Positions 808 to 53,896 of a DNA stretch of 64,000 nucleotides are shown piece after piece. The stretch lies in the NCBI GenBank assembly GCA_903813345.2, contig CAIIXF020000001.1, positions 3,472,001-3,536,000 of the forward strand, written 5' to 3'. Every line of letters begins with the position of its first letter. Position 1 is the stretch's first letter. Source of the stretch: Owenia fusiformis. Lineage: Eukaryota > Annelida > Polychaeta > Sabellida > Oweniidae. Below the pieces are notes generated by a model. That model ran no database searches and was not told where the DNA came from. It worked only from the letters and a program-made list of their open reading frames with translations. The position numbers and the translations under genes were made by a program.

Positions 808-3800
808 CTCTATATCCCTCTGGACTATTTGTATTGCACGCCCAAAACAGCATGTGGCTGTTTATAAACTCTATCACCTCTGCATTACCAAGGCATTCCC
901 TGAAAAACAAAACATTTATTTAAAGATTTCAAAGCATAGCGGCAAAAGGTTCACTACAACTTTGATTTCTCAGCTATCTCAAGTCAGCTATTACATTTTA
1001 AGAATAACCTTTTTACAAAACAACCCTTGAAGCCTCAGTAGAGTACAGATGTTGAACAAAATATAGTGTTTTTAACATTAGTTCAATTAATTTAATAAAT
1101 GTATGTTCACATTTGTAACTTTAAAATTATGTACAAAGAAGGGGTTATTTACACTTTGCAAACATTGGTCTTTCAAAAATGTTCTGTTACACTATTTTGG
1201 GATGAAAGAAGTCAATCTGTTATGAATTAACATTTTGAAACATTGAAATATTGACTTTGTTCTTATACCTTGCAAATGTTGCAGTATCTTGGTGGTTATC
1301 TCCATGGAGGTAAACTAGGAGAAACTTCAGCTCTTTTTTGGCATCATTGAGGGCCTGGAAAACAGTAAATCAAATTCAATAATTAATTGATTAAATTGAA
1401 TCCATCTTGGATTAAGTATCCTAAAGGAAATATATATTTTTCTTATTCATAATTAACTAGTATACAAATAGTGACTGCCATTGAGGGCAATAGGGTAAAT
1501 TATTTCCCCGAGGGAATATCCTCTAAAATGTACTATTCCCGAAGCTACAGGGAAATCATTTACACTATTGCTCGAAATTAGGCAGTCACTATTTGTTTTA
1601 TTATATACCCTATACTGACTCTTGTCCCGTTTCCTCAGCGAAGGCCAAAAGGGCTTACAAAGCCCCCTCCCCAGGTCCATTGTTAGCATTATAAGCTGTG
1701 ACGTCAAAATATACTCTTGAAATTTTTTCCTAAGAAATTTCCGAGACTCTCACTTGACAAATTCAATTGCGTTAAACACTTGAAATTACACAGACGTATT
1801 GAGCTTAGGGAACTTTATCCACGTTGCTTATATTGTATTGTTCACGCACCTATCATGGTGAACGGAGTTGATTTGTGTTTGTGCTTATCCTCAATTTATC
1901 TTTTTTTCATCTGCGCAGTGATGATGCGCAGACGTTTCCAAGGGTAATAGAAGTTGCAACTTTGACGTCAGCGGGCATAGTTCAAATGTATATTCCTGCT
2001 TCTTTCATTTGAGGGAATATAACTTTCGAAGGGAAATAGTAAATCTATTTCGGGACAAGTGACTAGGTATTGACCAATCAGGATGTTACATATTGGGTAT
2101 ATAATACAGCGCTTGCATTAGGTTAGAATTATTTGTGAGTCCCAAGGACGTAATTTTTTTTAAAAAGTGTGTCCTTTGAAAAAAAAGTGTGTCCCCTATT
2201 TCTAGCCTGTTTTGAGGTATACCTTTATTTTAAAAGCATTTTTTACCAAAACACCTTGAAGTTAATTTTGTCACATGATTGTCTTTGCTTCAACACAACA
2301 CATAAATATGTAATGTGTATTTTCTTGTATCATCAATTGACAAGGTACATGAAACTATAATTTAGAGTCAGGCTTACTTGACTGTATGATCCTTGGTAAA
2401 AGGTTGGGTGGTTTTCACCATACTGTTCATTATAATTGCGTATAAATGATATAACATCTCCTACTGGATCTGTGACATCTGGAATGAATATATTATGCGC
2501 TCAATAAAAGTTAAACATTTAGTTTCTTTTAACAGTGTTTTGTACAAGATTTTTTCTCATATCACTTTTGATTGAAATTCTCACTTATCAGTCCCAGTCA
2601 AATTAGGTCAAATCGTGCCAATATTTCTTTTTTTAGTTTTGAGTAAGTGCTACTGGGTTTATAAGTGATTTGGCAAAATCATTACATAAACATATTTAAA
2701 TCTTGGATATGATTTTCACAATGCATAAAATACAAGTGCATAAATTCAACTTACTCCGCCTTGGGTCTGGCCTTAGTAGTCTAACTGAAAATATGAAAAC
2801 ACAAATAATTAGCATGACAGTCAGTGTACATACATAGTACCCCGGACAGGTTGAATGATGCAGTTGTGTTTTTACTCTATATTTCCAAAAGAACAGCCTT
2901 TCTTAATGAAATTTTTGTATTCGATTCTGGAGAAATATTTTAACAAAATTCCAAATTCTATGATTTTTATCAGTTTATTTCAAAAAGATGTCACTGTCAA
3001 TAAAATACAGGTTTTTTCTTGAACAATTGAACTTTTAACATCATTTCAAAGATTGTCAAGCTATTGCACTTTTGACCGCCTAAAGTCTTTCCAGATGTAT
3101 TTGATGCCACATTAATTACGGCTGATTATTGTTATTCATTTTTGTCATATTCAATAGGCCTAATGTTATTACAGTGCATTAGGCCAATGAAAAACATGTC
3201 ACTCTGGGTCAAGTTTCCTCGGATAACACACCTTTTTCGCCACTGGGTTTTTCCGCCGCTGTCACTCAGCATGCAACCCTGTGGCACGTAAGTAGTACCA
3301 TGCTTTGAATATGTCAGGTTTCCCTGACAATTTCATGAATGTGACACAGCTATATTAACATCTCTGAAAGATCTAATGCCAGAAACACTTGAAGTTGGAG
3401 ATTTGTAATGTTTTACCTCATTTTGGACAGTATTGAACAGTTCGATCAGGTTGAACTCCTGTCCATTGACAAGAAGATTGACCTCCTCTATCTGGGCCTT
3501 ATCTACGGAATGCTTCACAAAATGAGACCAAGAGCAACAAGTTTTTTATTGGTCTAATGCACTGTAATAATACTGAATATGACTAAAATGAATAACAACA
3601 ATCAGCCATAACCAGAACAACGGCAACGCCAAAGCGTAGCGAATCCCATCGAACAGAAATGGCTGGCATTTTACAAACGAAATAAATAGCAAATATCATA
3701 AAACAACACACCAGAAAGGCCACCATTTTCAAAATGGTTAGCCAAGTTGTCATCAGAAGAAATAATATGCTTTTAGTAGCCATCTATAAAATTTTTGAAA

Positions 3801-6800
3801 AATCGCACACATGTACTTGTGAAATAAGTAAAAAATGTAAAAATGACAGCCATTTTTTAAAATGGCTGCCTACTATCCAAGTGTCATGAGACAGTGTGCA
3901 AGGCTCGTGAGTATTCACATATCAAATATGAACAAAATCGCTTCACTACTTTTCAAGTTATAGTAAAAACGTAAAAATGGTGGTCATTTTTCAAAATGGC
4001 CGCCTACTACCCAAAGTGTCATTAGACAATGTGCCATGCTAATAGTATTCACATATAAAATATGAAACATACCAAATATGAACAAAATCGCTGAACTACT
4101 TTTCGAGTTATAGTAAAATACGTTAAAATGGCAGCCATTTTTCAAAATGGCCACCTTCTACCAAAAGTGTCATTAGACAATGTGACATGCTTATAGTATT
4201 CACATACCAAATATGAACAAAATTGCTTCACTACTTTTCGAGTTATTGTAAAATACGTTAAAATGGCGGCCATTTTTCAAAATGGCTGCCTTCTACCAAA
4301 AGTGTCATAGGACAGTGTGCCATGCTTATAGTATTCACATACCAAATATGAACAAAATTGCTTCCCTACTTTTCGAGTTATAGTAAAATACGTTAAAATG
4401 GCGGCCATTTTGAAAAATGGCCGCCTTCTACCAAAAGTGTCATAGGACAGTGTGCCATGCTTATAGTATTCACATACCAAATATGAACAAAATCGCTCCA
4501 CTACTTTTCGAGTTATAGTAAAATATGTCAAAATGGCGGCCATTTTTCAAATTTTTTTTCAAAATGGCCGCCTTCTACCAAAAGTGTCACAGGACAGTGT
4601 GCCATGCTTATAGTATTCACATACCAAATATGAACAAAATCGCTCCACTACTTTTCGAGTTACAGCAAAAATCGTAAAATAACGAGTAAAGGCCGCCATT
4701 TTTCAAGATGGCTGCCATGTGCTTTTTTTAATATCTACATTTGTAGCTTTATTAATGTCCTTTATAATTTTTTTACACTTAAAACATATTGCTATTACAG
4801 TTTTACATATTGTACCTAAATTACTGTAAAATCGGCACTAAAATGGCCGCCATTTTAAAATGAGCGGCCATTTTGAAAATCGGCTTTCGAGCAGAACTTC
4901 TACCCCCATAGGGTATATGTGTACAAAATATGAAGAAAATCGGGCCAACGGTATTTGAGTTATTGCCCGGACGGACGGACAGACGGACGGACGGACGTAC
5001 GTACGGACGGACGTACGTACGGACGGACGTACGTACGGACGGACGGACGGACGGACGGACGGAGGCGTTCCCTATATCCCTCCGAACTTCGTTCGATGGG
5101 ATAATTATTACTATGGCAACAAATATATCTGGAAAGACTTTAGGCAGCCGAAAAGTCTATAGCCAGACAATATTTAGAATGATGTTATAGGTTCAATTAT
5201 TCAAGCAAAAACCTGTATTTTATTGACAGTGGCATCTTTTTGAAAAAGCTGATAAAAATCATAAAATTAAGAAATTCGTTAAAATATTTATTTTCCATGT
5301 TGGAAATTGTCTCTAGAACAAATCTTTAAAATTTCAATAAGAATGGTTGTTCCATTGCAAATAAAGAGTAAAAACACGACTGCATCATTCAACCTGTAGG
5401 GGGTACTATTTTAGTTGATAAACCAGAGATTAGCTCTGTAAACATGATGCTAAACACACAGATTTCCAAAGACTATATTTTATGTAGATGTTGAGGTATT
5501 AACCAATAGGAAATATTGCTCATGTTTCTAGCATTATTTTTGATAAGAACTTCATGCATGTTAGTAAATTAAAAATCTCAATACTGGTACCTGTATATGA
5601 AATGTTAATAAATATGAAAAACAGATTTCCATGGAGTATATCTAAGTAGATGATGGGGCATTAAACAATTGGAAATATTAGTTTTAATTGAATTCCTTGC
5701 ATTATTTTCATGCATGTCAGCCGTCAGGACATTAAAACAGCCTCAAAAGTTTACTCTTGTAAAAAAGTTGACGTACTTTTAAAAAATTAATTTCTTTGTG
5801 TTTCCTACCGATTAAATTCACCATATTTTATAAGATGTTTATTTTCAATGTTATAAGAATTCATTAGTACGAAAAATATGAAATAATTCGTAGGAACTGT
5901 TAGAAATAAGTGAATACTTATAGGACTTCTTTGCAAGGACCTTTTGCGATCAGAAATTGTTCATTACACCTTTGTTATGCAGTTCGATTCCACCAATTCT
6001 AAATCAAAAGTGCCCTATACCAAATTCCATGGCGATCTATGATGTAAGAAGAGAGGGCCATGGTATTCCATGATGTCAGTACTGTTGGTACTTGTTAATA
6101 AATACGAAATCATCTTTATCTCTAATTGTAGACATAAAATGTGTATACTTACATATGAAATTAAATATATCAAAGAAAGTAATGTACACAAATCTAAATG
6201 GGAAGAGGATTATATGTGTGCCCCATCCTAAGAGGCCTTGAGGTTGGCGACGGTTGGTGATTATAATTCTGAAATAAAATCAAAAAAGAATATTCAATAA
6301 ATGGTTGTATCACAACATAAGTCCAACCTAAAATATAAATTCTTAAATCCTGAATGTTAGTTGTAAATTCCCAGTATTGAAGAATGTGTTAAATTATTGC
6401 ATCCACAAAAAGACTAGAATCCACAAAAAGATCAGACATAATGGGTCTGCAATTGGAGGATTTAAAAGATGATAGAAAAGATGGGGTTAACATACCTTTG
6501 GTCTGATGGGTTCATATTTACAGGTGGTGTGGGGGGTTCTACCCTCTCTGGTTGGTCTTGTACTATGCGGTCTCTTCCCTCCTCTTCATTAAATGTATCT
6601 TGAACAGCCATCTACAAGACAGCAAACTCACATAATTCAATAACAGGAACACAATTACAAAGCTTGATTAACAGATGACCAGTACGATTCAGGAAAATTC
6701 CACAGCACCTCATGGCCAAATGGCTCTCTATTTATACAATTGAGAAATGTTTCCAGCAACCCACTTTGAAAAAATATGTGAAAAAGCCTGAGTTTAACTC

Positions 6801-9800
6801 ATGAGTATTATTTTTATATCATATCAAAAATGATCTATTCTAAAGGTGAAAGTCAGGAGAACATATACCTCAATATCCCAATTGCATCTTTCTAAGCGCT
6901 CACGACATCTTTCCATGTCTTCAATTCCAGTCAAATCCTGAAGATAAAATGAAAATAATATAAATTCAACATTTTAAATGCACATACTATTCCACAATGC
7001 TTTGATTTCATCTATTTTTTTGGAATTCTGCAATCAATTAAATCATGATGGTTCAATTGATTTGTGAAAGCCCAAGATTACATCAAGTCACAGAATTTAA
7101 TCTACCTGATTACAGTCAAAATCATTCAAATCGTGTTTGAACCCAAAAAAATGCGCTCATACTCATTTAGAGCAATATATTGGGCACAATTTACTGATGT
7201 TTCTGAATTCAAAATGTTCTGTTTCGTGACATTTCCGAAAGAAAACTTTTTATTATTTTTCTGTCACAATCCCGGCAAGACCTTCTTTTCTTTTAGTGAG
7301 CCTAATTTATTTTGACAAAAATTGATTCAACTTCCATCAAAATTGTCCTACAAGCTTCAATTAAAAAATCTTTTAAAGCTCTTTTCTTGTTCTATCTAAT
7401 GGGTCGCCGATATATACAGTTAGGGGAGGGGATGCGTTCGCCCCCGTCGCTCTCTACCCTTGCTACGCCAAGGCACAGGAGAAATATCTCATTGGAATAT
7501 ATCACTGTTTACTTTGCGTTTGGTAGCTCTCTCATGCGAGATGGAATCGTGGCAATTAACTAAGGGAGCCAAATGCAACTTCCATCAAAAATTGTGCTAT
7601 AAGCTTCAAATAAAAAACATTCTAGCTATTTTCTTCTATCTAATGGGTAGCAAACACCCCTTTCTACGCCTGATCGGCTCATGAGAAATATCCTGTCTGT
7701 TTAGAATATATATAGCCGTTTACTCTGCATAAATAGCTCTCTCACGTCTTACTTGTTCATGTTTTTTATTGCGTTTTCAACATTTACTACCATTCCCTGT
7801 TCCCGGGCTACCATTTTTTGACTGGGTTTGGTAATCCCCGGGTAACCGGGGCTAATGCCCTCCCCGGGTTTTGCACTTGTTCCCAAAATATCCGTATGAT
7901 ATCTGAAATATCCTCCCGCCTATTGCGCCTGCGCCAGAAAATTCGAAAATCAAAAATATTATTTGTCGGTCCTCTAGTGTGTAAACACAGCATATCTCCC
8001 GTACCGACAATTTATTTGTCGGTCCTCTAGCGTGCCACCACATCAGAGTCTAGAGTACCGACACTCTACCGGTACTCTAGCCTTTACGTTAAAAATTGAA
8101 CCCTTCAAAGACTGTATCCCAACCCACATACGACATACCTGGGTATGAGGTACAAGGTTTCTTATACAAAACCAAGTGATGTGGGTAAAAATACCAAGCA
8201 GCTTTAGAATCATGTTAAATAAATTTAACGACCCATTAGACAGATAGATTTTCTTGTATATTCACACTTCAGAGTTATTTTCGCTGAAAGTAATTTGATT
8301 GGTCACTACAATCACAAAATTAGTAATGAAACAGCCGGGGGATTGGAGACTTCTTCGTTGGTAAGTAGATAGGTGAATATGTGGGAAAACTCAATATGCA
8401 AAAAAATTCCAGAGGGTCTTGATTGTGCCACAGATATTGGATATATCACTGTTTACTTTGCGTTTGGTAGCTCTCTCATGCGAGATGGAATCGTGGCAAT
8501 TAACTAAGGGAGCCAAATGCAACTTCCATCAAAAATTGTGCTATAAGCTTCAAATAAAAAACATTCTAGCTATTTTCTTCTATCTAATGGGTAGCAAACA
8601 CCCCTTTCTACGCCTGATCGGCTCATGAGAAATATCCTGTCTGTTTAGAATATATATAGCCGTTTACTCTGCATAAATAGCTCTCTCACGTCTTACTTGT
8701 TCATGTTTTTTATTGCGTTTTCAACATTTACTACCATTCCCTGTTCCCGGGCTACCATTTTTTGACTGGGTTTGGTAATCCCCGGGTAACCGGGGCTAAT
8801 GCCCTCCCCGGGTTTTGCACTTGTTCCCAAAATATCCGTATGATATCTGAAATATCCTCCCGCCTATTGCGCCTGCGCCAGAAAATTCGAAAATCAAAAA
8901 TATTATTTGTCGGTCCTCTAGTGTGTAAACACAGCATATCTCCCGTACAGACAATTTATTTGTCGGTCCTCTAGCGTGCCACCACATCAGAGTCTAGAGT
9001 ACCGACACTCTACCGGTACTCTAGCCTTTACGTTAAAAATTGAACCCTTCAAAGACTGTATCCCAACCCACATACGACATACCTGGGTATAAGGTACAAG
9101 GTTTCTTATACAAAACCAAGTGATGTGGGTAAAAATACCAAGCAGCTTTAGAATCATGTTAAATAAATTTAACGACCCATTAGACAGATAGATTTTCTTG
9201 TATATTCACACTTCAGAGTTATTTTCGCTGAAAGTAATTTGATTGGTCACTACAATCACAAAATTAGTAATGAAACGGCCGGGGGATTGGAGACTTCTTC
9301 GTTGGTAAGTAGATAGGTGAATATGTGGGAAAACTCAATATGCAAAAAAATTCCAGAGGGTCTTGATTGTGCCACAGATATTGGCCAGATCGTTTTGTAG
9401 TACAGTAAAATTTCAAATGTTAGGTCCTACTTTGAATTAACAAAATAAGCAATCAAATGACTATATTGCAACAGTATATAAAAAAATAGAAACATATGTA
9501 CTTGTCCTAACTTTTGTATATTTCAGATAGTTATGTAAAATGTGCAGTAAAGCTGTGGCCTTTTGTAATTTAGGGAGTTTCAGCCATGTTAATTTTTCCG
9601 AAAATGACATGGCGGAGAAGCATCAAAATATGAGAGAGCACAGACATGATAGCTAAACTACAAAACAAACTAAAATATACAAAAGTTAGGACATGTATAA
9701 ATGTTCCTATTTTTACATATACTGCTTCAATATGGTTCTTTGATTGCTTATTTTTCAAATTCAAAGTAGTTACTAACATTTAAAATTTAACTGTAGGATC

Positions 9801-12800
9801 TCATAGGCTCAAAGAATAATTCACAAGATACGACACTAAATTGGAAAATTTCAAAAAAATATGACCACCTTTTAAAAATGTCCTTATACAAAATGGTACC
9901 TGCTTCCCCATGACAGATTTTGCACTTATAGCTGAGATCTTCATCTTTCTATTTCTACTTGTTTGGTTCGAGTAAATAACCTATGGATGCAGTTATTTGA
10001 CTTTTAATACGGCGAATATGTTTCACGAGATCCGGACTCTTGCGTGTCCAAATATCATTGTAATGATGACGTCACATTTCTGGAACCACGGGAGCACCAT
10101 TCAGATTTGGACAGACAAGAGTCCGACGATAAATTATCACTGTTTTGGCCTCTTATCAACGCAGCATTGCTTGAATAACGGTCATTGATGATAAAAAAGT
10201 TAAAGAATAACAAGATGCTTCGAATGAGGTATGATTTGTCTCATATTTTTCAGAAATGGCTCCATAATCGTCATTTTAAAATTTGAAATTTTCATCTAGA
10301 TGGATATAATTTCATAAACAAACTGAGGTGTCTCATCTTGAGGAATATTTATTGAGCTACTGATCCAACTACAAAAGAATCTGGCCGGGATCTATGGATT
10401 GTGCTTTCCTAGAGGCACAGGCTGGTATCGAAAAATGTGTCCGCTGTGACGGAGCGTGCTATTTTGCATAGAAACACTAAGAAACCCAGACAATTTATTT
10501 TTTTACTCATATGTTTCGCTATTCCAAAGAAAATTTCTTACTCCATGCAATGGGTATATCATTTGTGGGTAACTTTAACTTTTGTTTGAAGTCCAACAAC
10601 GCTAAGAGTAAAAGCTATTGAAAACGGCGCCGGGGTATCATACTCCAAAATGTACCATTTCTTTTATTTCTTTTTAATGGTACAATATATTGATACAATA
10701 ATATTTACATATGTTTTCAGCATAACTCTGAAGGTATTAATGATATCTTGATGTATTGGGTATTTTTAATATTTTTTATAAAAAAATAATGTTTACATTT
10801 TTTGTCTGCTGTGACGGAGCAGCTTTAACTGTGAACTACGTTAAGAATTTAAGATTCAAATTATATCTTTTAAAAGTACCCTTAGAAGAGAGAACGTCGC
10901 AAATCACTTTCCTAAATTATGACAAGTAGCCTCTTGGAGATCTGGGGTAATGTAAATCTGAGATATAAAAACGACCACGGAGGTTTGTACTGAAATCAAC
11001 ATGGTGTAAACTCAACATAATATTTCTAATACGTTTTCGCCAAGACGTCTTGAAATGTCACGTGTAGTGTAAATAGGGCTAATATGAATTTATTCGAAAT
11101 AGCGCACAGACATCATGCATTCCGACAGATGTTTAACCTTTTACCACATAATATTACTGTATATAAGATGATCCCAATACAGATGTGATTTGTAATTATT
11201 TGAGATTCATGAAATTCATCGTTTTGCATAGACTAAAATTATAAAATAAAAAGTCTTGGTAAACGTGCTGTACTGTAAAGCCTGTATCAATGAATATCTT
11301 TCTCTAGTGAACACCTCTTCTTATCAAATATTTCTCTGACTTCTGTATGAAATTGCCTGTATGGAGTAAACAAGACCAACTGGAAACACATTTTTGGGCT
11401 CCATATGTGTCCACTATACACATGTTTTACTGTAGTTGCATCAGATAGCCATAACTCTTATTCAAATAAAGAACGATCATAAAATCAAATTTTGCATTTT
11501 CGCATTTCAAGATACACTCAACTTAGCTTTTGGAACAACTAAAGAGGGTAGAACAATCTACAGCCCATATCATCATATGTATTTAGCCTCATATTCAGCA
11601 AATCATTTTACTTCAAATAATCAAGTTACCGTAAAAAATGACCATGTCAGGCCGATGGATCCACGGAAGCCACTACGAAAGGCAAATACCCGATACTGAA
11701 ATGAAGTTGACTATCATTTTCATGATCACCATGCATAAGTTGGATTGCAGTACAAACTGAGAAAAGAAGCTTAAAGAGTGGTCGTATATACATCTCAGAA
11801 TTTGAATTGTGTACTTTTATTACTTTTCATTTTTAGAATACTTTACGAGATTTGACACGCTCGCTCCTCTAAAGTGTAGTTGTAAAGAGATATATTATAA
11901 ATCTAAATTCTTAAGGTGACATTTAAGATAATCAAAAGTACAAAAACATGGGAGCCATATTTTTTTGATAAAGTCAGAAGATTTTGTATACTGTTTTCCT
12001 TGTATGTGAATGCATTTCCTGACTTAAGAGACACATAAAAGAAAACCTCACATTTAAACGCATTTTTCATAACTATGAATTGGAGGTGTATGGCTCCCAA
12101 AAGCTAGCATGAAGAGTGCGAAGTGAGGCTATTTTTTGAAAGTTTCAAGGAGTAGCCTTGCAACAGTCACACATTTGCAAGAATTCAAAATTTCCAGATA
12201 TAGTCTTACCTTACCAAGGAACAACGAAGGAGCACGAAAATGTGCACTTCTTGCATTGTTAGAGTATAATAAAGCTCAAACCATTGTGAATCCTAAATAT
12301 TTCATGTCCACCACTTTGTTTCCTGGAACTATTTTTTAGTCCAGAGTTATCTTCATTCATGTTTCCATTGTTTATCATTCATAAAGCCTCTATCATGTAT
12401 CTATCATGATAATTACACTGTAATAGATAAAACATACAAGTGATAATCCATGCCACTTGGTGTAGTCACAAAACTTGCATGAGGATTAATCAGGAAGTCT
12501 AGAAGTAGTTCCGGCAAACAAAATGTGGACAGAAATATTTAGAATTTACAATGGTTTGAGCTTTATTATACTCTAACAATGCAAGAAGTGCACATTTTCA
12601 TGCTCCTTCGTTGTTCCTGGGAAAGTTAAGATGATTTGTGGAAATTTTAGACTCTTGCAAATGTGTGACTGTTGCAAGGCTACTCCTTGAAACTTTCAAA
12701 AATTAGCCTCACTTCGCACTCTTCATGCTAGCTTTGGGGATCCATGCACCTCCAATTCATAGTTTGGAAAAATGCGTTTATGTGTGATGTTAACTTTGAC

Positions 12801-14288
12801 ATGTTTCATTTGTCAAGATACACAATTCATATACAAGGTAAACAGATTTTAAAAACATCAAAAAAATATGGCAGTCATTTTTTGTACTTTTTATTTAATA
12901 TAGCGTCGCCTTAATGTATTTCAGATTTGAAACTGCTCCGTCACAGCGGACAAAAAAATTTAATTATTATTTTTTATCAAAAAAATTAAAAATACCCAAT
13001 ACATAAAGATCTCATTAAGGTGCTATGGAACTTAACAGGAAATGACAAAACAGGAAGTGACAATTTTTTTTGCATTTTTAGATATTTTTTGAATAAAGAT
13101 AACAGAGTTCTGGTTTGACCTCCAGTCAATTTAACTATTTCCACATATCATTTACATGACCAGGATCACAATGTGCATGGTCAGAATGACCCTAAACATG
13201 ATGAAATAACCTTTTTAGCCCTTTGAAAGTGTGACTGAAAAAAAGCTAAAAGTAGGAGCGTAGGGAAGGTCACTGAACAGAATCTTTTGAATTTTTCAGA
13301 AAATGTGCCCAATATATTGCTCTAAATGATACAATCTTTGAAAATTTGATATCATTCATAGAAAAAGAAAAAAAATGAAAAAACTGATTTGAAAAGCGAT
13401 CTATTTTCCTTTTTATGACTGCCATTTTTGTTTAAGACAATTTTCCAAAATTTCAAAGATTGTACTAGTAAGAGCATTATATTGGGCACATTTTCTGAAA
13501 AATTCAAAAGATTCTGTTCAGTGACTATCCCTACGCTCCTACTTTTAGCTTTTTTTCAGTCACACTTTCAAAGGGCTAAAAAGGTTATTTCATCATGTTT
13601 AGGGTCATTCTGACCATGCACATTGTGATCCTGGTCATGTAAATGATATGTGGAAATAGTTAAATTGACTGGAGGTCAAACCAGAACTCTGTTATTTTTA
13701 TTCAAAAAATATCTAAAAATGCAAAAAAAATTGTCACTTCCTGTTTTGTCATTTCCTGTTAACTTCCATAGCACCTTAATACCTTCAGAGCTCCGACGCC
13801 GTTTTCAATAGCTTTTACTCTTAGCATTGTTGGACTTCAAACAGAAGTTAAAGTTACCCGCAAATGATATATTCATTGCATGAAGTCAGTAATTTTCTTT
13901 GATAGACTAGTCTATAGCAAAACATATGAGTAAAAAATAAATTGTGTGGATTTCCTAGTGTTTCTATGCAAAATAGCACGCTCCGTCACAGCGGACAAAT
14001 TTTTCGATACCAGCCTGTGAGAGGCTCATTAAACATTTAGGTCGCTGACTCAAAAAACGAAAAAGTTCAAGACTGGAGAACGAATTAGACTAGATCTAGT
14101 CTAGTTCTTACACATTTGTCATTCTTTCTGAACAAACAATTGATCAAAAAGATCAAAACTTTGCGTAAACATTTCAACCATATTTAATTTAAGGAATTCG
14201 GAAGAAAACACGATTAGCTAATGTTTACCTGGAAATGCAGGAGCTTTTCAGTCTGTTCCGAGGTAATTTCAGTGTCGTTGTCCGCCAT
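808..14288 (-). CDS. FAF2: FAF2 (UBXD8), N-terminal half; 3' exons lie left of the window
   Basis: Eight coding exons on the - strand, GT..AG throughout: 14229-14288, 6869-6937, 6496-6611, 6153-6268, 2755-2784, 2378-2478, 1269-1354, 808-899. They join in frame to 223 codons. Residues about 8-43 form the UBA domain (EQTEKLLHFQ, then a second helix with NWDIE). Residues about 80-115 (GLLGWGTHIILFPFRF) are the hydrophobic hairpin that inserts into the ER and lipid-droplet monolayer. From about residue 130 (NVTDPVGD, YNEQYG, HPTFYQGSYSQ, LVYLHGD, MLFWACNTN) comes the first part of the UAS thioredoxin-like domain. The coiled coil and C-terminal UBX domain, which recruits p97/VCP, are not in the window. 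In known animals FAF2 links ubiquitinated ER clients to p97 in ERAD and regulates lipid droplets. Exon 5 is a 30-nt microexon. Match to the family is recognised residue by residue, so identity is firm. Confidence 0.95.
3118..3610. mobile_element. Nested ~490-bp inverted-repeat element
   Basis: About 75 bp at 3118-3195 (TACGGCTGATTATTGTTATT onward, through GTGCATTAGGCCAAT) is repeated in inverted form at 3540-3610. The interior (3330-3530) includes an exon-like - strand open segment that reads as ordinary protein and ends at a good donor (see findings). Confidence 0.65.
3607..5105. repeat. Composite repeat with ~140-bp tandem units
   Basis: From about 3900 to 4700 a unit of roughly 135-145 bp recurs about six times. 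Each has 'caaatatgaacaaaat', 'acttttcgagttat', 'aaaatggcggccattttt', and 'gtgtgccatgcttatag'. The block starts with 'gccaaagcgtagcgaatccc' and ends with 'cttcgttcgatggga' after a GGAC microsatellite. A shorter relative with the same two ends is at 40515-40860, and an end fragment is at 21330-21395 on the opposite strand. The 88-codon open frame at 4277-4543 is a translation of this repeat. Confidence 0.8.
4968..5062. repeat. (GGAC)n/(GTAC) microsatellite
   Basis: About 95 bp of GGAC units interspersed with GTAC, forming the 3' part of the composite repeat. A short relic of the same tract is present in the copy at about 40787-40805. Confidence 0.95.
7497..9384 (+). repeat. Near-identical tandem duplication, unit 944 bp
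   Basis: 7497-8440 and 8441-9384 are direct repeats with an exact offset of 944 bp. I saw only a few substitutions, for example at about 7992 versus 8936 (c/a), 8155 versus 9099 (g/a) and 8332 versus 9276 (a/g). Within each unit is a GC-richer core with short repeats ('tgtcggtcctctag' twice) and CCCGGG-rich hairpins. The second unit runs directly into the inverted repeat of the element at 9376. Identical short open frames in both units are not genes. Confidence 0.95.
9403..9793. mobile_element. 391-bp foldback MITE inserted at TA
   Basis: The element starts CAGTAAAATTTCAAATG and ends with the complement CATTTAAAATTTAACTG. The arms are about 120 bp and also share 'aagcaatcaaa' and 'cctaacttttgtatat'. 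It is flanked by TA on each side (9401-9402 and 9794-9795). The empty site 'gcag TA ggatct' survives at about 50011-50022, so a TA duplication on insertion is directly visible, as expected of Tc1/mariner-type transposition. Confidence 0.85.
9824..10340. mobile_element. ~517-bp inverted-repeat insertion
   Basis: The ends CAAGATACGACAC and the complement of GTGTCTCATCTTG are imperfect inverted repeats. The block is absent from the related element at 49987-50102. The interior has a second pair of inverted segments (ccggactcttg...gtccaaat near 10030 and atttggac...caagagtcc near 10104). No clear target duplication was seen. Confidence 0.6.
11912..12912. mobile_element. 1.0-kb foldback element with TTAA ends
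   Basis: TTAAGGTGAC at the left and its counterpart GTCGCCTTAA at the right bound arms of about 400 bp. Shared blocks include 'ttggaggtgtatggctccc', 'gcatgaagagtgcgaagtga' and 'gttagagtataataaagctc'. TTAA at both outer edges fits piggyBac-like or Kolobok-like target use. No transposase frame is present; the 87-, 65- and 67-codon open frames in and near it are not genes. Confidence 0.75.
13015..13779. mobile_element. ~765-bp foldback element inserted at TTAA
   Basis: TTAAGGTGCTATGGAA at the left and its complement TTCCATAGCACCTTAA at the right enclose arms of about 360 bp. It sits in the right arm of the 10416-14019 element. The left arm keeps the empty version (ggtattaatgatatc at about 10732), so the insertion used and duplicated TTAA. 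Its first eight bases resemble those of the element at 11912. Confidence 0.85.
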
Positions 14289-15297
14289 GTTGGAAATTTT
14301 CAATAGAGGCATCACTCCGCTAATTTTACAAAACTTAGATTTCATCAACATCAACATACTTGATTCGGTGGCAGAACTCTGCTTCAACAGTCGCCTTGCA
14401 GATTTTTTTAGTATGATTGCTAATTGCTTTGTTGTCTACCCTTGCTTTGTTCTTGAGAATCTGACCAAAGTTTTTATTGTCATGACTTTAGTATGAATGA
14501 AGTGTCCCTAAGTGTTATGGTCCCGAATTGTGATAATGGTACTTCTATGGTTGGGAGGGGTTATATTAAACCTTGTTTCTTTTCACTTTGATCATGGTTT
14601 TGGATAATTGGGGTTCGTTTTTCATATGACTGGACTCTTAAATGCTTTTTCTTGCTGTGTGTTTGTAATAATTCTAGTCCTTTCCTTTTGGCACTAGTGC
14701 ATACATATTTTTCCTTTTGACTCTGGTTTTATTTTGGCAGGGTGCCATGGTATTATATCATATGGCATAGGCTAAACTGCCCCATATTTATGTAGATTAT
14801 GATTCCCCTTTAACAAATGTCTACCCTTACATTGTTTTTGAGCTTTTTACTAAAGTTTATATTTTCCATTTCTATCTTAATCTTGAAGCCATATAGAACA
14901 AATTTAAGTTTTGTCAAAATCTCAGAAATATCAGAAATATCATCATGAAGATCACTATTTTACCTTGATACTAGGATAATCTCAACTCATATAACTGTAG
15001 GATACTGGAGATTTTTCATTTTGAAACCTAAATATCAGTTCTGATAATTCATCATCCAAATTCAGAATTGTGAACTGACTTTGATGACATCATCAAAAAG
15101 TGTGTACAATTCCTTCACTGGTTTACATTGAGAGGACAAAGCCTCAATCTGATATATAGATCACATGATCTCTAAATGGAAGTTCCAACACAATGCAGAT
15201 TATTCAAACCCTTGTAGTTGAACACCTTTGCCTGGGGAGTTAATATCTCAGCTATGTAAGTAATATTTTAGATGTTCTATATGGCTTTAAAGTGACT
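14289..15297. other. FAF2 5' flank, no gene seen
   Basis: This is the upstream side of the FAF2 start codon and probably contains its promoter, but I see no convincing core element. A short inverted pair (AAGCCATATAGAACA at 14885 and its complement near 15275) may mark a degraded MITE of about 400 bp. Confidence 0.4.
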
Positions 15298-15909
15298 TTT
15301 AAAGGAATATTCCTTGCCAAATCATCTCTCTCCTAATATGGTAGCTATAACCATATATATGCTTGCCATGTTTATCAAAACACGCAAAAATGTTTTGATA
15401 TGGTCAAATTTGATCACTTAGAAATGTGATGCTCAATTCCAGTAAGCTGCCATCTTTTAAAATTTCACACAGGAAGTGATGTCATCGACTCTCAACTTTG
15501 CATATAGCATTAGGTGAGGAGCTATTAAGAATTACAAAACCAGCTAAATATTCTTTTTCAACTTTGTATCTTATTTAATCCTTCTGAAAATCTCTTCTTT
15601 TATTCTAAGTTGACAAGCCCTGAAAATATTTTTGCATAGAAAGTAATGATCACTTGTCTAGAAGTGATTTTGTGCTACTTTCCTATACTGTTATGGGCAA
15701 GGTTATAGAAGTTGAGAGTTGATGACATCACTTCCTGCAAGAAATCTTATAAGATGGCAGCTCACTGGAAATAAGCACTCGATTTTTAAATGATCAATAT
15801 TGACCATATTAAAACATTTTCCCATGTTTTGCTAAATATGGAAACTATATATATGATTATAGCTACCATATCAAGAGAGAAAGGGTCTGGCAAGGAATAT
15901 TCCTTTAAA
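15298..15909. mobile_element. 612-bp foldback element
   Basis: TTTAAAGGAATATTCCTTGC at the left edge is inverted at the right edge. The arms run for about 215 bp with shared 'atggtagctata', 'agatggcag' (opposite sense) and 'aggaagtgatgtcatc'. No coding capacity. Confidence 0.8.
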
Positions 15910-16079: not shown

Positions 16080-16887
16080 AACAGGAAATAGATTATCTAT
16101 GTCTATGTCAATAATCTGCAAAAGGCTAATAAGCCCATATAAAGCAGATATATAATTTAACAGTGATAGAATTTGAATAGAATATAATTTAAAACCTTAA
16201 CATTTAAAAATAGATCTATGGTTTACAACTCATTTTACCTGGGGAGACTGTCAGGCTACCGCGTTGACATCACCCCTCTTTACCAGTAGTGCAGGCTTGT
16301 TGCTGTGCACTGGGGACCCTTTACATTAAAACATAGATCTATATTAAAAACACACCTATTTAATTGCAGTTATTGACATAGGCATAGTATGATGATTTAA
16401 AACTACTTAGACTGTCACAGTCTAAGATGTCACCAGGTAGAGTGTTCCATTTAGCTATTGTCCTAGGGAAATAGCTAAATTTGTATGCATCCGTTCTAGT
16501 TGATGGTTGTATGAACTTAGAAGGATGATACAACCTAGTGTTGGTATTGATCTGTTGGCAGAAGTATGGAGGCACGTCGATGGCTGCTAGGTTCTGCTTT
16601 CCTTTGTAGAAAAGGAAAACTCTAGCAGCCTCTCGACGCTCCTTCAGTGGCTCCCACTGTAGGTCTTGAAGAGCTTTGGTGACGCAGCCTGGTTCCCTTG
16701 AGTGACATTTGGTTACAAACCTGGCTGCTCTTCTCTGAACCTGTTCCAACATATCAATATCTTTTTGTCGGTAAGGATCCCATGCCGAGCTGGCATACTC
16801 TAAATTAGGCCGGACTAGTGACTTATACGCCTGAGCCTTCACTTTTTCAGGGCATTGATGGAGGTTGCGCCTGAGAAATCCAAGCAC
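16080..16887 (-). mobile_element. 3' end of a non-LTR retrotransposon (LINE), truncated
   Basis: The - strand frame 16887-16360 (175 codons to the stop) is the C-terminal tail of a LINE reverse transcriptase [31 protein letters not shown], then a segment ending near [14 protein letters not shown]. These are the conserved post-palm blocks of CR1/jockey/RTE-type elements. The polymerase core is absent, so it is a 5'-truncated dead copy. The sequence just 3' (about 16350 down to 16080) is its untranslated tail, and it recurs at 48510-48915 ('gactgtcaggctaccgc', 'gcaggcttgttgctgtgcac'). Confidence 0.85.
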
Positions 16888-17059
16888 CTTATTATATCAA
16901 AACGAAATCTTAATTAACATCATTAATTCTGAATTTGGCAAAGAATACTTACTCAGTTATGTATTCTCATATTTTTAGTATAATTATGGACTATTTTTTA
17001 ATAATTGCACTGTTGTGGATAAAAAATATTTTCAAAAATTGACAATCTGACAAGCTGAG

Positions 17060-18047: not shown

Positions 18048-19176
18048 CATAGGCTGAGGTTAAGTACTATTGTAAACCATATAAGAATTAACAGGTCAAC
18101 AATTGGGATTGAAAAATTTTCAAAAAACTTGCCGTCTTCAGGCCTGTCAACTGTCCCGCAATTTGCGTATTTGTCACGCATTTGCTGAAGAATTTGAAGT
18201 CACGCCAGTTATTTTTGCGTGACAGAAAATGTCACGCAAATACGCATTTTACCTGGTAATTGTCAAGCAAAAATGTTTCTGTAGAAAAATTTCTAAAGAT
18301 CGTCTTAACAGCAAAAATACGAACGCCGGAAAAAAATGTACGCATTTCGTTCGGACTTTTCACGCGAATTGCGTATATGTCACGCATTCCGTTCGAAATT
18401 TTTTCGTACCATGTAATAAAATTGAAACCAAGGTGTTCAAAAATTGGATGAAGGTGTTCAGATTTGGACAAAGGTGTCCACATTTTGAGGGGAGGTGTTC
18501 AACATTTCCAAGTCACTCATGTTAGGTGTTCCCAAGTTGACAGGCCTGCGTCTTGGTACGAGTTCTCCTTACTGGTATCGAGTCGTACCACCAAATCTCC
18601 CAAGAATCTTCTCCAAAGTGTTTTCGAAACGTATATTTTTGAATATTTCAAATCTATATCCTAACTCTTCGATAATGGTTGTAATTAGAAGTTTAAAATT
18701 CCAAGAAAAATGTTAATTTCACCATTTAAATTGGGTTTAAAAAGATATTATATGAAACAGATGTTTTGATAAATAATTATTAAGTACACCTTTTATAGTT
18801 TTGTACACTTTAATTGATTGTTATTTCTAGAATATGAATTACATTTTAGAGAACCAGATAGGTGTCACTGGCGGCGGTTAGCAGGAACCAATCAAATTCC
18901 TTGTTTCAAACTTCCATTTAACACGGAAATCCGGGTAACTTGTAGGTTTTCAGAATATCTCGCCTCAAGACGGCTTTATTCACTCTATATCACTTGAATG
19001 GGGTTGATTCATAGGTAAGAATTGCGAACTATCAATTTTGGATCAACTCTGCATTGTTTTTTGAAAAATTATACACAAATAATGTTAAAATCGCCATGTT
19101 AACAAGTGGCCTAAATCCTAGTTGTTGACCTGTTAATTCTTATATGGTTTACTATAGTACTTAACCTCAGCCTATG
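18048..19176. mobile_element. hAT-like non-autonomous element, copy A
   Basis: The ends are CATAGGCTGAGGTTAAGTAC and its complement, flanked by perfect 8-bp direct repeats AGTTGAAC (18040-18047 and 19177-19184). Terminal inverted repeats run for about 55 bp. An 8-bp target duplication fits the hAT group. It has no transposase frame. A related copy in the opposite orientation is at 50563-51393, and a 68-bp end-only version is at 49754-49821. It carries an insertion at 18139-18548. Confidence 0.85.
18139..18548. mobile_element. 410-bp element with 6-bp target duplication, inside copy A
   Basis: The ends are CAGGCCTGTCAAC and GTTGACAGGCCTG. CGTCTT is present on both sides (18133-18138 and 18549-18554) but only once at the same point of copy B (about 51301-51306, read on - strand). 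The interior is full of the motif 'cgtgacaaa/tttgtcacgca' in both orientations. A diverged relative is at about 43870-44140. Confidence 0.85.
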
Positions 19177-42681: not shown

Positions 42682-45600
42682 CTACATATAGCCTGCATTA
42701 AGCAACATTTGTGAGTATGACTGATAGTGAGCTGCCAACTCAGGAGGTATAGCTTGTTGGCCTTGTTGCACTTGGGGAGCAGGTACCTGCACTTGTACCC
42801 CTTGGGGTGGGCCTGTCTGGGGGGAGGGGGAATTAATGGGCATGTGGGTAGGTTGAAGGGTGCTGACTGTAGGTATATACTGCTGGGGGAGGGAGGTGCT
42901 TGGGTGATGAGGGACAAGCATCGTTGGAGGCCCTATCACTTGAGAGGTCTCCATAGTAACCCCAATATCTCCACTCTCCAACACATCACGATGAGGCATT
43001 TCCATGTATGCAGACTCCACCTTCAGTTGATTTAAACTATCATGCTCAACCACTTGTGATTCAGCTTTATGGTCCTCATTATCATTAGCAATTCTAGGTT
43101 TATTTACAAGATACTCTGTTATAACTTTAGGTACAGAGGATTCCTCATCAGGTTTTAATACCTGACTAACATGATTATATGCTCGCTTGCTCTTAATCTC
43201 ATTTTCATTATAATTCACTGGGTTTGAAGAATAGTGTAAGAAAGGTTGCCGCTGACGCTTCCTTGGTTGCGACACAGTAGCTAGCTCACTATGATGTTTC
43301 CTCATATGTTCTGTTAGTTTATCCTTGCGACTGCAGGCAAATTCACATTGCTCACATTTGATTGGTTTATCAGGGAGATGGGTTTTCTCATGTCGAATCA
43401 GATTGCTTTTATCAACAAAGCCCATTCCACATGTTGTGCAGACAAACGAGCGAATTCCAAGATGAAATCTTGTGTGACGATCAAGGAGTGAACGCTTTGG
43501 TGTAGAGTAAGTGCATTCTGGGAAGGCACAGCGGAAAACGTCACCTGGAGAATATTACACCAAGAATATAAATTATGAAAAACTAATCATATTCAGATAC
43601 TGTAAATTGCTTTAATTTGGCAATTTTTGATTTGGCTGATTGGGCAAATTTTGAAATTTTGACTATATTTAATTTGTCAGATTGACTATCAGTACTCATA
43701 TTACTCACTTCAAAGCTCGCCATCAATAACGCAATTTTATCTCTCCTGGTATCAGATTGTTTTATCTAAACCAGAGGGGACTTTGGAAATACATATAGTT
43801 TAAAATTGACATTTTATCCATTTTTCAATCAAGATTTTCACCAAAATTTATCGTGCAAGGTTATACATTGAAAGCGCACTGGACTAAAGTTGGGGGGTAC
43901 AAAAAATTCGAAGCAAACGGGTGACATATACACAAATTTCGTACCAAATGCGTGACATGTATGGAATTTGCGTGAAAAGTCTGGTGTACATTTTTTGAAG
44001 TTCTTCTACAGAAATATTTTTGCTTGAGAATGTTATCAGGTAAAATACGTATTTGCGTTACATATTCTGTCACTAAAAATAATGCGTGACAAATACACAA
44101 ATGGCGGGAAAGTTGGACTCCCTGCACCACCTGGTTGCTCACAATATAACTAGTTCAATCCTAAGTCAGATTTAAATTTATGAGAACTCTGTAGATGATT
44201 TTGAAAAAAATAAATTGGTCAATTTGAAATTTTTTGACCCTGAGAAGGTCATTGAAGGTGAAATCTAAAGTCAGATTTGAACTTCTGAGAACTTGACTTT
44301 GAAAAAAAAATTGGTAAATTTGAAGCAAGTTGAAAAAGACCTTTTTGACCTTGACAAGGTCATTGAAGGTAAATGTTTTTTGACCTTGAGAATGTCACTG
44401 AAGGTCAAATCAATTTGAAAACTTGTAGATGATTTTGAAAAAAATTGGTCAATTTGAAACAAGTTGAAAAAAGACCTTTTTGACCTTTTTATGACCTTGA
44501 GAAGGTCACTGAAGGTCAAATCTTAAATCTTAAGTGAGATTTAAACTTCTGATAATTTGTAGATGATTTTGATAAAAATTTGGTAAATTTAAAGAAAGTT
44601 CAAAAAATACCCTTTTGACATTTTTTTTACCTTTTTTTAACCTTGAAAAGGTCATTGAAGGTCAAATCTTAAATGTAAAGTCAGATTTGAACTTCTGAAA
44701 ACTCTGTAGATGATTTGTAAGAAAATTGATGTCAGTCTAAACAGTATTTCGTAAGTTATTGGAAGTTTTAAGAATTTGTTACAGACACCAACCGCCATCC
44801 GCTGATCGTCAACTACCAATCGCCGCCACAAAAAATGGAGACCATAACAAATAAGTCACTACTTCTTGGTGGTGACATAAAAACTAATGGAGACTTAATT
44901 TGGCAGTTTCTATCAATCTGCCAAATTAAAACGGCCGTCAAATTAAAGCAATTTACAGTAATCTGAAGAATTCCTGAATTAGTAGTGCATCATTTAAATG
45001 ATTTCTCTGGAGAAGGTAACAAGATTTCAGAAAAACTTTATTTCAATTTTACCCAGCATACAGAATAGGGCAAATAATTTGTTATCGTTGTGTTTAATAG
45101 CTGACCTGTATGTATGCGCTTATGTCTCATCATAGTTGTCTGATGCTTGGTCGAAAATCCACAGGAATCACACAGCCACAAGCTCACCTGAATAATATAT
45201 GAAATATGTTCTAATCATAAACATTTTATATGCCCACAGATATATTCAATATATTACTTCATCTTATTTAAATCTCAGCGTCAAGTGCAACCACTCTCCA
45301 GACTGTGGCCTGAACTAAATAAGGGAGAATAACATTGGAATGAATTACAATTATTATGAAATAAAAACTCAATTTAACATTGTTCACACATCCAATTTAG
45401 CCCTAGTCTCTACAGAAAGACGCTCAGTCTAAATTCCAGATGTTAATGATAATGTTCCAATTACCTGGCTGTGCTTCTGACAGTGGGCCTGTAGCTCTTG
45501 TCTGGTATAAAACCTATCCCCGCACTGGTCACATGCATGACTCTTGTCCCCTGGAATAAAGAAAATAAACATTACATTGACATCTAAGCCCATTTAAAGC

Positions 45601-48101: not shown

Positions 48102-48509
48102 TTCGGAATTCAGTCAAATTTATCATAAAATGAACTTAGACTATCTGCAAGTATGGCTATTTGATGTAAACATGATAATTCCACCTATTCTATCCAAATT
48201 TTAGAAGTGATTTGTTCGATTAAAGTTGTTTTATGGACCAGCCCCCATCACAAATATCTACTGCGCATCGCAATTACGCATATGTCGCTAACAATCGTAA
48301 CAAATAATAGATTGTCCACAATACGGGCTTCTGACAGTTCTACAATTCAAACACAAGCGTTCGTATTGCGTTTATAGCACGGGAAAACACGTATACTATT
48401 TTCGTATAGTACACAGGAAATACATCACAAAAAGCCTATCTAATTAAAAAAATCAGATAGGTGTGGTTTTATATTGTCGTCTGTATGCGATTTATAGTAC
48501 TTCCACATC

Positions 48510-49821: not shown

Positions 49822-49986
49822 ATTCCACTCATGTCCATGTGAACATTTTATGGTTAGGCGTGTTCTTGTTGGTACTCTTGGATTTCCTGAACTGCCACTG
49901 CTTCTTGCGTATCATCGTAGAAAGCACGAAAAACGATACAAATCTGGTTGTATATCATCTTTTTGGCTTACCTGGGTGGGTGCTGG

Positions 49987-50102
49987 CATAGATGTTGGCC
50001 AGATCGTTTTGCAGTAGGATCTGATAGGCTCAAAGAATAATTCAGGAGGAATATTTATTGAGCCACTGATCCTATTACAAAATAATCTGGCCGGGATCTA
50101 TG
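49987..50102. mobile_element. ~115-bp MITE, uninterrupted relative of 9376-10397
   Basis: CATAGATGTTGGCCAGATCG and its inverted partner ending GGCCGGGATCTATG enclose 'aggctcaaagaataattc'. It keeps the empty sites of the two insertions present in the copy at 9376. Confidence 0.85.
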
Positions 50103-50350
50103 GGTGCTGGTAACCAGTTGCACCCCGTGTCTTATTGTATTTGGCAATGTCTAAGCAGCAGGCGCAAGTAATATGCGCACAAATAGTTTGGATCGAAAAT
50201 TCTGAAATATTTACAAAATGGTAAGGTAAAGTTTCGATTATCTTTGATTCTATTTGGTATCTTGAATTGTATAGTACCTTTGTAGCATCTAGAATTTGTC
50301 GAATTAATTTTGTTGTCATTTTAGGTTTGAAATATGGGCTTATGACTGTG

Positions 50351-52820: not shown

Positions 52821-53896
52821 GCTAGCCACTACAGCTGAGACTGTAGTAGCGACTTGACATTTACTGACATTCTGTCCAACAAGTGTAGACTTTCACCATA
52901 TTGAATGGCCTATCATTATTTATTCCGATTCAAACATAAAAAAGAAAACCTTGTTCAGAGAATTGGGGCTTTAGGTCAATGAAATAACCAAACTTGCTGT
53001 TATTTTCGCCATTCCCAGGTGTGACGTCATAATAACACAATACGTGTACATAGATTCCTGGAAGCAGATTGAATAGAGCGCGACCGTGCCTGTATGGAGA
53101 AATAATGAATGTTCATTATTGGCTATGTTGCATTCTGATTGGTTTAGAAATTCAAATAGAGCACGGTCATGTTTGAATTCCAATCACATTCTACGTTTCT
53201 GATCTTTAACGCATACAATACAACCACACATTAGTAATTTAATGTATTTCAAAAGTTGAAAAATAAAGGCGCTAGCTTTGCACATATTTCTTACTTTAAT
53301 CAATTCTAAACACCAGTCTCAACATTCTCTCAAAGCCAAAAAGGTAGCGGCTGTCTCAAATTGCAGAGCTAGAGGTAAACACTTCAATCTTTAAATCAGC
53401 CATTATTTCAAAATGTCCAGCTTTAACTTCAGGAATTGATTTTGAGAACACTACGAGCATAACAGAATGACGAATGAGGTTACATCAGTGTGATCTGGTG
53501 TCTTCGGTAGCCGAGATACAGTAACATCCGGTTTCTTCAATATGATTTATTATGTACCAAAGTGCAACAAACATACATTAGAAAGGCCATAGCTAGTTAT
53601 AAATCATTTTATCCATCACAATTATGTATCAATATAAAGTAAAAAACTCATTTTTCAAAAGTGAGATATCACAAAATTTATGTGTCCTCAATAAAAGCTG
53701 CTTGTCAAATCATTGCTCTTATGCTGTAGCATAGCCATCTATTTCCAGGATTCAATTGATTCGATTTGTTTGCCACTACTAGTATTTTGATATGTTGGCT
53801 AAACTTATGTCTCACATGGTATAATTGCATTCTTTGGTTCTCCTTTCTAGATGCAGGACAAAGCACTGTTTGAAGCTAATTGAGAACAACCTCAAA

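Follow-up and report, generated by a model that had tools for sequence, protein, structure and literature searches.

A nest of foldback elements at 10411-14024 of the 64-kb window (the whole stretch of DNA analysed) very probably consists of four stacked nonautonomous DNA transposons of the cut-and-paste type, in which an outer foldback was inserted first and three Kolobok-type elements, here named A, B and C, came later. The inverted arms of all four elements exceed what shuffled sequence gives, A being the weakest of them. An earlier reading of this DNA made from the letters only (the sequence-only reading) had described a layered nest of foldbacks; the nest itself was recovered, with four elements and not three. 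Transposon nests are common, and this one is an ordinary transposon graveyard, though unusually readable, which leaves the knowledge of transposons unchanged. Within a single intron it preserves the record of four insertions and of two types of duplication. Moreover, the outer arms reveal two of the insertion sites, that of C and the central one occupied by A and B, with no need of a second genome, and the exact element ends can be used to retrieve the families from the host genome.

The outer foldback and its insertion site

The outer foldback occupies positions 10416-14019 and is flanked by AGAGG at 10411-10415 and 14020-14024. The two copies match exactly and abut the inverted ends; the duplication is exactly 5 bp, and the flanking bases beyond it differ. 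For a random pair of places in the window, an exact 5-bp match occurs at a frequency of 0.0017. The left arm (10416-10844, plus strand), which has the outer end sequence CACAGGCTGG and reaches up to the central TTAA, was delimited by alignment to the right arm without C, and the right arm (12911-14019, minus strand), an inverted match to the left one, is split by C. The arms measure 429 bp on the left and, without C, 348 bp on the right. Aligned from tip to centre after removal of C, they gave 308 matches and 29 mismatches, an identity of 91.4% over 337 ungapped columns, as well as 103 gap columns, 90 of which form one stretch that is present in the left arm only. The arm tips (10416-10633 and 13793-14019) are 93.5% identical over 217 ungapped columns and score 341, compared with a maximum of 37 among 300 dinucleotide shuffles. 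The sequence-only reading had proposed this foldback with its AGAGG flanks, and had named a tandem inversion without flanking duplication as one of the findings that would speak against it; the exact repeat is present at both tips.

With A and B taken out, the outer element is nearly all palindrome, with a TTAA at the centre where A and B sit. Inside the inner motif (see below) the arms align, more loosely, over 24 more bases, and both stop at this TTAA, which is the exact start of A and the exact end of B. The 90 bp confined to the left arm (10634-10723), delimited by the alignment gap, contain a weak hairpin, TGTACCATT...AATGGTACA; as DNA, the region 10640-10735 folds with a z of -2.92, and 3 of 200 shuffles fold equally well. 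No clear duplication was found at the borders of this stretch, and it is either a small insertion or a sequence lost from the right arm.

A comparison of the joined outer flanks with the window gave no unoccupied copy of the outer insertion site. By itself, the left flank resembles a different dispersed repeat, at 50046-50103 (93% over 58 bases), and this match stops before the insertion point; a looser alignment of the same flank reaches 10418 (84%, 79 columns), and the right flank has no continuation of it. That insertions of this kind are routine here is shown by other foldbacks: for one with an exact 8-bp duplication, the window contains an unoccupied near-copy of the site, with 97.6% identity over 245 columns.

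A repeated subterminal motif

Each outer arm holds a motif that starts at base 23 and recurs near the centre. In the left arm, the subterminal motif TGTCCGCTGTGACGGAGC is located at 10438-10455 and its inner copy, with 1 mismatch, at 10803-10820 (both plus strand). In the right arm, the core TCCGCTGTGACGGA is exact both at the inner position, 12937-12950, and at the subterminal position, 13982-13995 (both minus strand). The core, TCCG-CTGTGA-CGGA, is a short palindrome, and the motif is a possible candidate for a transposase site. Searched as letters, it had no match in the literature search. IMG/VR was also scanned with six patterns from the ends or cores of the outer element, B and C: 10 loci were obtained with the outer motif TCCGCTGTGACGGAGC and 0 with two further outer patterns, whereas one B pattern gave 1 locus and two C patterns gave 0. 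When the eleven loci were compared with 10300-14199 (E up to 0.01), the only similarity was one 19-base exact match, and they were taken as chance matches. The prokaryote genomes scanned with one outer pattern gave 0.

Three TTAA elements inside the outer foldback

Element A (10841-11914) has the ends (TTAA)GAATTTAAGATT and (TTAA)GAATTTAGATTT and the arms 10841-11006 and 11727-11914. Element B (11911-12914), with arms 11911-12364 and 12471-12914, has the ends (TTAA)GGTGAC and (TTAA)GGCGAC, and element C (13015-13779), with arms 13015-13348 and 13446-13779, has the ends (TTAA)GGTGCTATGGAA. TTAA is present at all borders of the three elements; A adjoins B, and the TTAA at 11911-11914 is common to both. 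The sequence-only reading had recognized one TTAA foldback in the outer loop, which corresponds to B, and had overlooked that the rest of the loop is A; the foldback it had reported within the right arm is C.

The arms of C are 97.0% identical over 334 columns (score 618, maximum of 300 shuffles 38) and those of B are 87.2% identical over 436 ungapped columns (score 518, maximum of 300 shuffles 41). The alignment of the arms of A has 152 ungapped columns, of which 82.2% are identical, and 50 gap columns; it scores 63 compared with a maximum of 37 in 300 shuffles. When the whole 201-base arms of A were considered, none of 1000 shuffles reached the observed score in any of three scoring schemes; among 1000 randomly paired stretches of the window, 0, 0 and 1 did so under the three. 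Without the outermost 30 bases the corresponding numbers per 1000 were 0, 0 and 1 shuffles and 2, 1 and 6 window pairs, and without the outermost 60 bases they were 19, 1 and 2 shuffles and 17, 2 and 6 window pairs. After removal of 30 or 100 bases A scored 32, not above the maximum reached in 300 shuffles, which was 35 and 32, respectively. Because the trimmed arms fall to near shuffle scores, the case for A depends mostly on its outermost bases, and its inner arm is not clearly above chance.

C lies inside the outer right arm, and the left arm retains the uninterrupted sequence GGTATTAATGA, i.e. an internal empty site, as the sequence-only reading had pointed out; according to the arm alignment, the undisturbed TTAA at 10737-10740 is the counterpart of the C insertion site. 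For A and B, the outer arms stop at one TTAA. As TTAA is palindromic, for A and B alone it could belong to the inverted repeat rather than to a duplication. In sequence, A, B and C are unrelated to one another and to the outer left arm, all six pairwise scores being within the range of 60 shuffles each, and no further complete copy of the outer element, A, B or C was found in the 64-kb window. A partial relative of the C arm (70-73%) is located at 7160-7268, and 12883-12987 has a weak AT-rich match to 58513-58618 (67% over 109 columns, E 7e-4).

Inside the TTAAs, the termini of A, B and C are GA...TC, GG...CC and GG...CC, respectively. Because all three read TTAA-RR...YY-TTAA, they are best read, from their ends, as putative Kolobok-type elements, nonautonomous and inserted into an older one; the sequence-only reading had assigned its TTAA elements to no class. 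A TTAA duplication is also made by piggyBac; however, TTAA combined with RR...YY ends is the signature that distinguishes Kolobok from piggyBac (PMC9587614, in part). The ends GA, GG and GG of A, B and C are RR; piggyBac was rejected on this feature, and we consider it quite improbable for these elements. The Kolobok-type reading can be compared with the T2-MITEs of Xenopus, nonautonomous Kolobok elements which likewise have a TTAA duplication, RR...YY termini and inverted repeats and lack coding capacity (PMC9587614 and PMC6004289, both in part). They differ in that their ends are AGGRR, whereas those found here are GGTGC, GGTGA/GGCGA and GAATT, and in that B and C consist almost entirely of their arms.

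Origin and class of the outer element

Large palindromes can arise via inverted duplication, and this general route, or an assembly error, could in principle have made the outer structure in place of a transposon. This is very improbable in view of the exact 5-bp direct repeat at both tips. Furthermore, the arms differ at 8.6% of ungapped columns, which indicates neither a recent copy nor a misassembly, and the inverted match ends at the tips, with no joining inverted repeat in the flanks; an assembly artefact was rejected on these three grounds. Taking the outer element as a transposon, we consider it possibly a hAT with 5-bp duplications (hAT5), or else a member of the CACTA/Chapaev/Transib group. 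The 5 bp of AGAGG agree with a nonautonomous hAT of the hAT5 type, which is defined by 5-bp duplications (PMC12730594, in part), a comparison made by duplication length. The window also contains a hAT-type foldback family (50563-51393 and 18048-19176) with exact 8-bp duplications, the ends of which start CATAGGCT and equal the outer CACAGGCT at 7/8 bases. However, this likeness does not extend past the 8th base and was selected from some ten foldbacks, the family duplicates 8 bp and not 5 bp, and a hAT transposase is absent from the six frames of the nest searched with Pfam. Repeated subterminal motifs are known at hAT ends (available text of PMC4763223), and the outer arms hold their motif twice each; the 133 hAT elements of a curated bivalve library, as against one Transib identified in the same mollusc survey (PMC10294476, in part), are relevant only if the host is a mollusc. 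An assignment to hAT5 is only tentative.

The terminal sequence of the outer element, CACAGG...CCTGTG, has CA...TG ends, and the terminal heptamer of Transib elements is CACWRTG. The first five outer bases, CACAG, fit CACWR, but CACAGGC agrees with the heptamer at 5/7 positions, having GC and not TG at positions 6-7. The hint at Transib in the sequence-only reading, which rightly left the class open, thus holds for CACAG, the CA...TG ends and the 5-bp duplication and fails at heptamer positions 6 and 7. Ends that are mostly CA...TG, with 2-5-bp duplications, characterize the CACTA/Mirage/Chapaev/Transib group (PMC12730594, in part), and the outer ends and AGAGG agree with both features. More narrowly, Transib and RAG-like elements have 5-bp duplications and ends that begin with CAC, like the outer element (PMC4411706 and PMC7204232, in part), and CACTA-type (CMC) elements were found in all mollusc genomes analysed in the accessible part of PMC10294476. 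On the other hand, besides the heptamer remainder, the A-rich positions differ: the protostome RAG-like consensus CACTWMCAAACKTYKBB (PMC7204232, same part) does not fit the outer end, which has its A-run at positions 16-20 and not 8-10. Compared with CACTWMCAAAC, it mismatches at positions 4, 5, 6 and 8-11, and of the first ten bases only CAC and position 7 agree. A nonautonomous member of this group, in the narrow case a Transib, may likewise be proposed only tentatively. It is unlikely, but conceivable, that the outer element represents a lineage not yet described, which would combine CACAGGCTGG ends and a 5-bp duplication with a palindromic operator twice per arm, bound by a transposase that would be neither a typical Transib nor a typical hAT. 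These ends are not described in the available portions of the literature on nested foldbacks, TTAA MITEs, 5-bp hAT and Transib elements, and may still be published.

Two further comparisons concern the outer element. KolobokP solo terminal repeats, which are bivalve-rich and in some families have 4-5-bp duplications, end in RR...YY (PMC9587614, in part), whereas the outer element ends in CA...TG, and KolobokP was rejected for it. Tetris of Drosophila virilis shares very long inverted arms and the lack of a conserved ORF, but has 8-10-bp duplications, in contrast to 5 bp and TTAA here, and was assigned to Mutator by its authors (PMC4079207, in part). A Mutator-type foldback was rejected on the duplication length.

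Host gene and order of insertions

The nest sits, as in the sequence-only reading, in intron 1 of a FAF2-like gene. Exon 1, read by eye on the minus strand, is MADNDTEITSEQTEKLLHFQ followed by a GT donor, and exon 2 and the later exons match human FAF2. With the six frames of the nest (X at stops), no Pfam family was obtained at E up to 1, in agreement with the earlier claim that transposase frames are absent, and Rfam gave 0 hits at gathering scores over 10000-14500.

The anatomy shows that the outer foldback entered this intron first, making the AGAGG duplication. A Kolobok-type transposase from elsewhere in the genome may later have placed A and B side by side at the central TTAA, in an order that is not fixed by the sequence. 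C would have entered another TTAA, in the right arm, and would be the most recent if arm divergence is a guide. However, the divergence of arms cannot be used here as a simple clock, because those of A and B (82% and 87%) are more divergent than the enclosing outer arms (91%). As they have no recognisable gene, all four elements would be movable only in trans, and since insertion they have probably only lengthened the intron. As RNA of the gene strand, C has a computed folding energy of -562.4 kcal/mol, with 0 of 20 shuffles as stable, and a hairpin of about 335 base pairs is predicted for it in the pre-mRNA.

The nested foldbacks of intron 1

The nest in intron 1 of the FAF2-like gene, made up of an outer foldback and three TTAA-bounded foldbacks inside it (A, B and C), is real and readable. 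Its four DNA transposons are nonautonomous; they are new members of an ordinary kind. The outer element extends over 10416-14019 (3.6 kb), is flanked by an exact 5-bp repeat, AGAGG, and has the tips CACAGGCTGGTATCG in both orientations. When its arms, the inverted repeat halves, were aligned from the tip to the central TTAA, with C removed from the right arm, 308 matches, 29 mismatches and 103 gap columns were obtained, 90 of the gap columns forming a single stretch found in the left arm only (10634-10723). The outermost part of these arms scored 341, as compared to a maximum of 37 among 300 shuffles. Exact 5-bp matches between two random places of the window occur with a frequency of 0.0017, and 78 of 59,900 window pairs at the spacing of the outer element share one; the AGAGG duplication is therefore good but, by itself, not overwhelming evidence.

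Both this foldback with its AGAGG repeat and its placement in FAF2 intron 1 had been proposed in the sequence-only reading, and both were borne out. By eye, exon 1 of the minus-strand FAF2-like gene is MADNDTEITSEQTEKLLHFQ, followed by a GT donor at 14228, and exon 2 starts at 6937, preceded by CAG, so that intron 1 spans approximately 6938-14228. The nest accounts for half of the intron and its edge lies 204 bp from the donor. A partial relative of the C arm (70-73% identical) is located towards the opposite end of the intron, at 7160-7268. The left flank of the outer element (10272-10397) itself belongs to a sequence that is dispersed and inversely repeated, related stretches lying near 9372-9900 and near 49984-50103.

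Inner elements and order of insertion

The two inner foldbacks already recognized, B (11911-12914; arms 87.2% identical over 436 columns) and C (13015-13779; 97.0% over 334 columns), are present, and a third one, A, had been overlooked. A occupies the remainder of the outer loop (10841-11914) and adjoins B, with the TTAA at 11911-11914 common to both. Between its arms, identity is 82.2% over 152 ungapped columns; a further 50 columns hold gaps, and the score of 63 compares with a maximum of 37 in 300 shuffles. The score of the whole 201-base arms was never reached in 1000 shuffles under any of three scoring schemes; among 1000 pairs of stretches drawn at random from the window, 0, 0 and 1 reached it. 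Removal of the outer 30 bases gave 0, 0 and 1 for shuffles and 2, 1 and 6 for window pairs; removal of 60 gave 19, 1 and 2, and 17, 2 and 6. In a separate test with 300 shuffles, A scored 32 with either 30 or 100 bases removed, the shuffle maxima being 35 and 32. A is thus a worn foldback, with most of its support near its ends.

No mutual sequence relation was detected among A, B, C and the outer left arm, each of the six pairwise scores falling inside the range of 60 shuffles. Folded as RNA of the gene strand, C reached -562.4 kcal/mol, a value as low being found in none of 20 shuffles.

At the site of C, the left outer arm reads GAAGGTATTAATGATATC, and the right arm is identical save for one base once C and one TTAA are removed. 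The left arm is thus an internal empty site for C, which confirms the earlier suggestion that it keeps the undisturbed site of this insertion. The outer arms remain alignable, less tightly, as far as the TTAA at 10841 and 12911, where A starts and B ends; the outer element was therefore nearly loopless and TTAA-centred before A and B, which would have entered the TTAA at its centre. By the nesting, the outer element is the oldest of the four. Arm divergence is lowest in C and highest in A, and it is no clock in this nest: the arms of A and B probably differed before insertion, because they are more diverged than those of the outer element that encloses them.

Classification of the elements

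All three inner elements have the structure TTAA|RR...YY|TTAA, RR being GA, GG and GG. TTAA duplications and RR...YY ends, the latter unlike piggyBac, are described for Kolobok (PMC9587614), and the passages cited on Xenopus T2-MITEs likewise give TTAA and RR...YY, with AGGRR ends (PMC6004289). By this likeness in ends and target, A, B and C were filed as putative nonautonomous Kolobok-type elements.

Viral and prokaryotic collections scanned for patterns of the outer element and of C yielded no copies, which, given the nature of these collections, is uninformative on the families of these elements.

The Transib end heptamer is CACWRTG, with which the outer end, CACAGGC, agrees at five of seven positions. 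According to the sources cited, Transib and RAG-like elements make duplications of 5 bp (PMC4411706, PMC7204232), and the CACTA/Mirage/Chapaev/Transib group has 2-5-bp duplications and, mostly, CA...TG ends (PMC12730594); both the ends and the duplication of the outer element conform to the latter description. The sequence-only reading had hinted at Transib and left the class open; the duplication and the partial heptamer still speak for it, whereas two heptamer positions are unmatched and, among the first ten bases, the protostome RAG-like consensus (PMC7204232) is kept only at CAC and position 7.

Assignment to hAT5, for which 5-bp duplications are also reported (PMC12730594), would in addition fit the repeated motif of the outer arms: subterminal repeats have been described in hAT elements (PMC4763223), and each outer arm contains two copies of TGTCCGCTGTGACGGAGC, exact or with one base changed, one starting at base 23 from the tip and the other near the centre. 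All four window matches to its 14-bp core (at most 3 mismatches) lie in the outer arms, with 1.05 expected and at least four found in 2 of 100 shuffles. At seven of eight bases, the outer end also agrees with the CATAGGCT ends of a hAT-type foldback family in the window, a likeness that is only suggestive because some ten foldbacks were available for comparison and CA is a common start; moreover, that family makes 8-bp duplications and the outer element a 5-bp one. We leave the outer element between hAT5 and the CACTA/Transib group.

Other foldbacks and frames in the window

A scan of the window for inverted repeats (arms of at least 25, separation up to 6 kb) found 39 pairs, the 25 longest of which were listed. 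The hAT-type family has two copies, 50563-51393 and 18048-19176, with CATAGGCT ends; their 8-bp duplications (GTTATGGT and AGTTGAAC) are exact. The foldback at 50563-51393 occupies one of two neighbouring near-identical flank copies; the other flank copy, at 51713-51957, is empty (97.6% over 245 columns). The TA-flanked foldback at 9401-9795, with TACAGT ends, sits within a dispersed repeat and has an unoccupied relative with one TA at 49984-50044 (91.8% over 61 columns). These and the other foldbacks of the window support the view that foldback insertion is routine in this genome. The joined flanks of 18048-19176 and of 15298-15909 revealed no unoccupied site in the window. The latter foldback has TTTAAAGGAATATTCC ends which, taken as TTAA|AGGAA, agree with the AGGRR given for T2-type Kolobok MITEs. 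A large foldback at 2834-5409, with ATAGTACCCC ends and an indistinct duplication, encloses a smaller one (3116-3611) in its loop; the nest in intron 1 is thus not the only case of nesting.

By eye, the translation of an open frame at 16360-16896 resembles the end of a non-LTR reverse transcriptase. Frames at 46116-48113 (minus) and 53825-55525 (plus), together with 42682-43554 (minus) and 56575-57780 (plus), resemble, also by eye, two genes of the BTB and C2H2 zinc-finger kind, which may be a duplicated pair.
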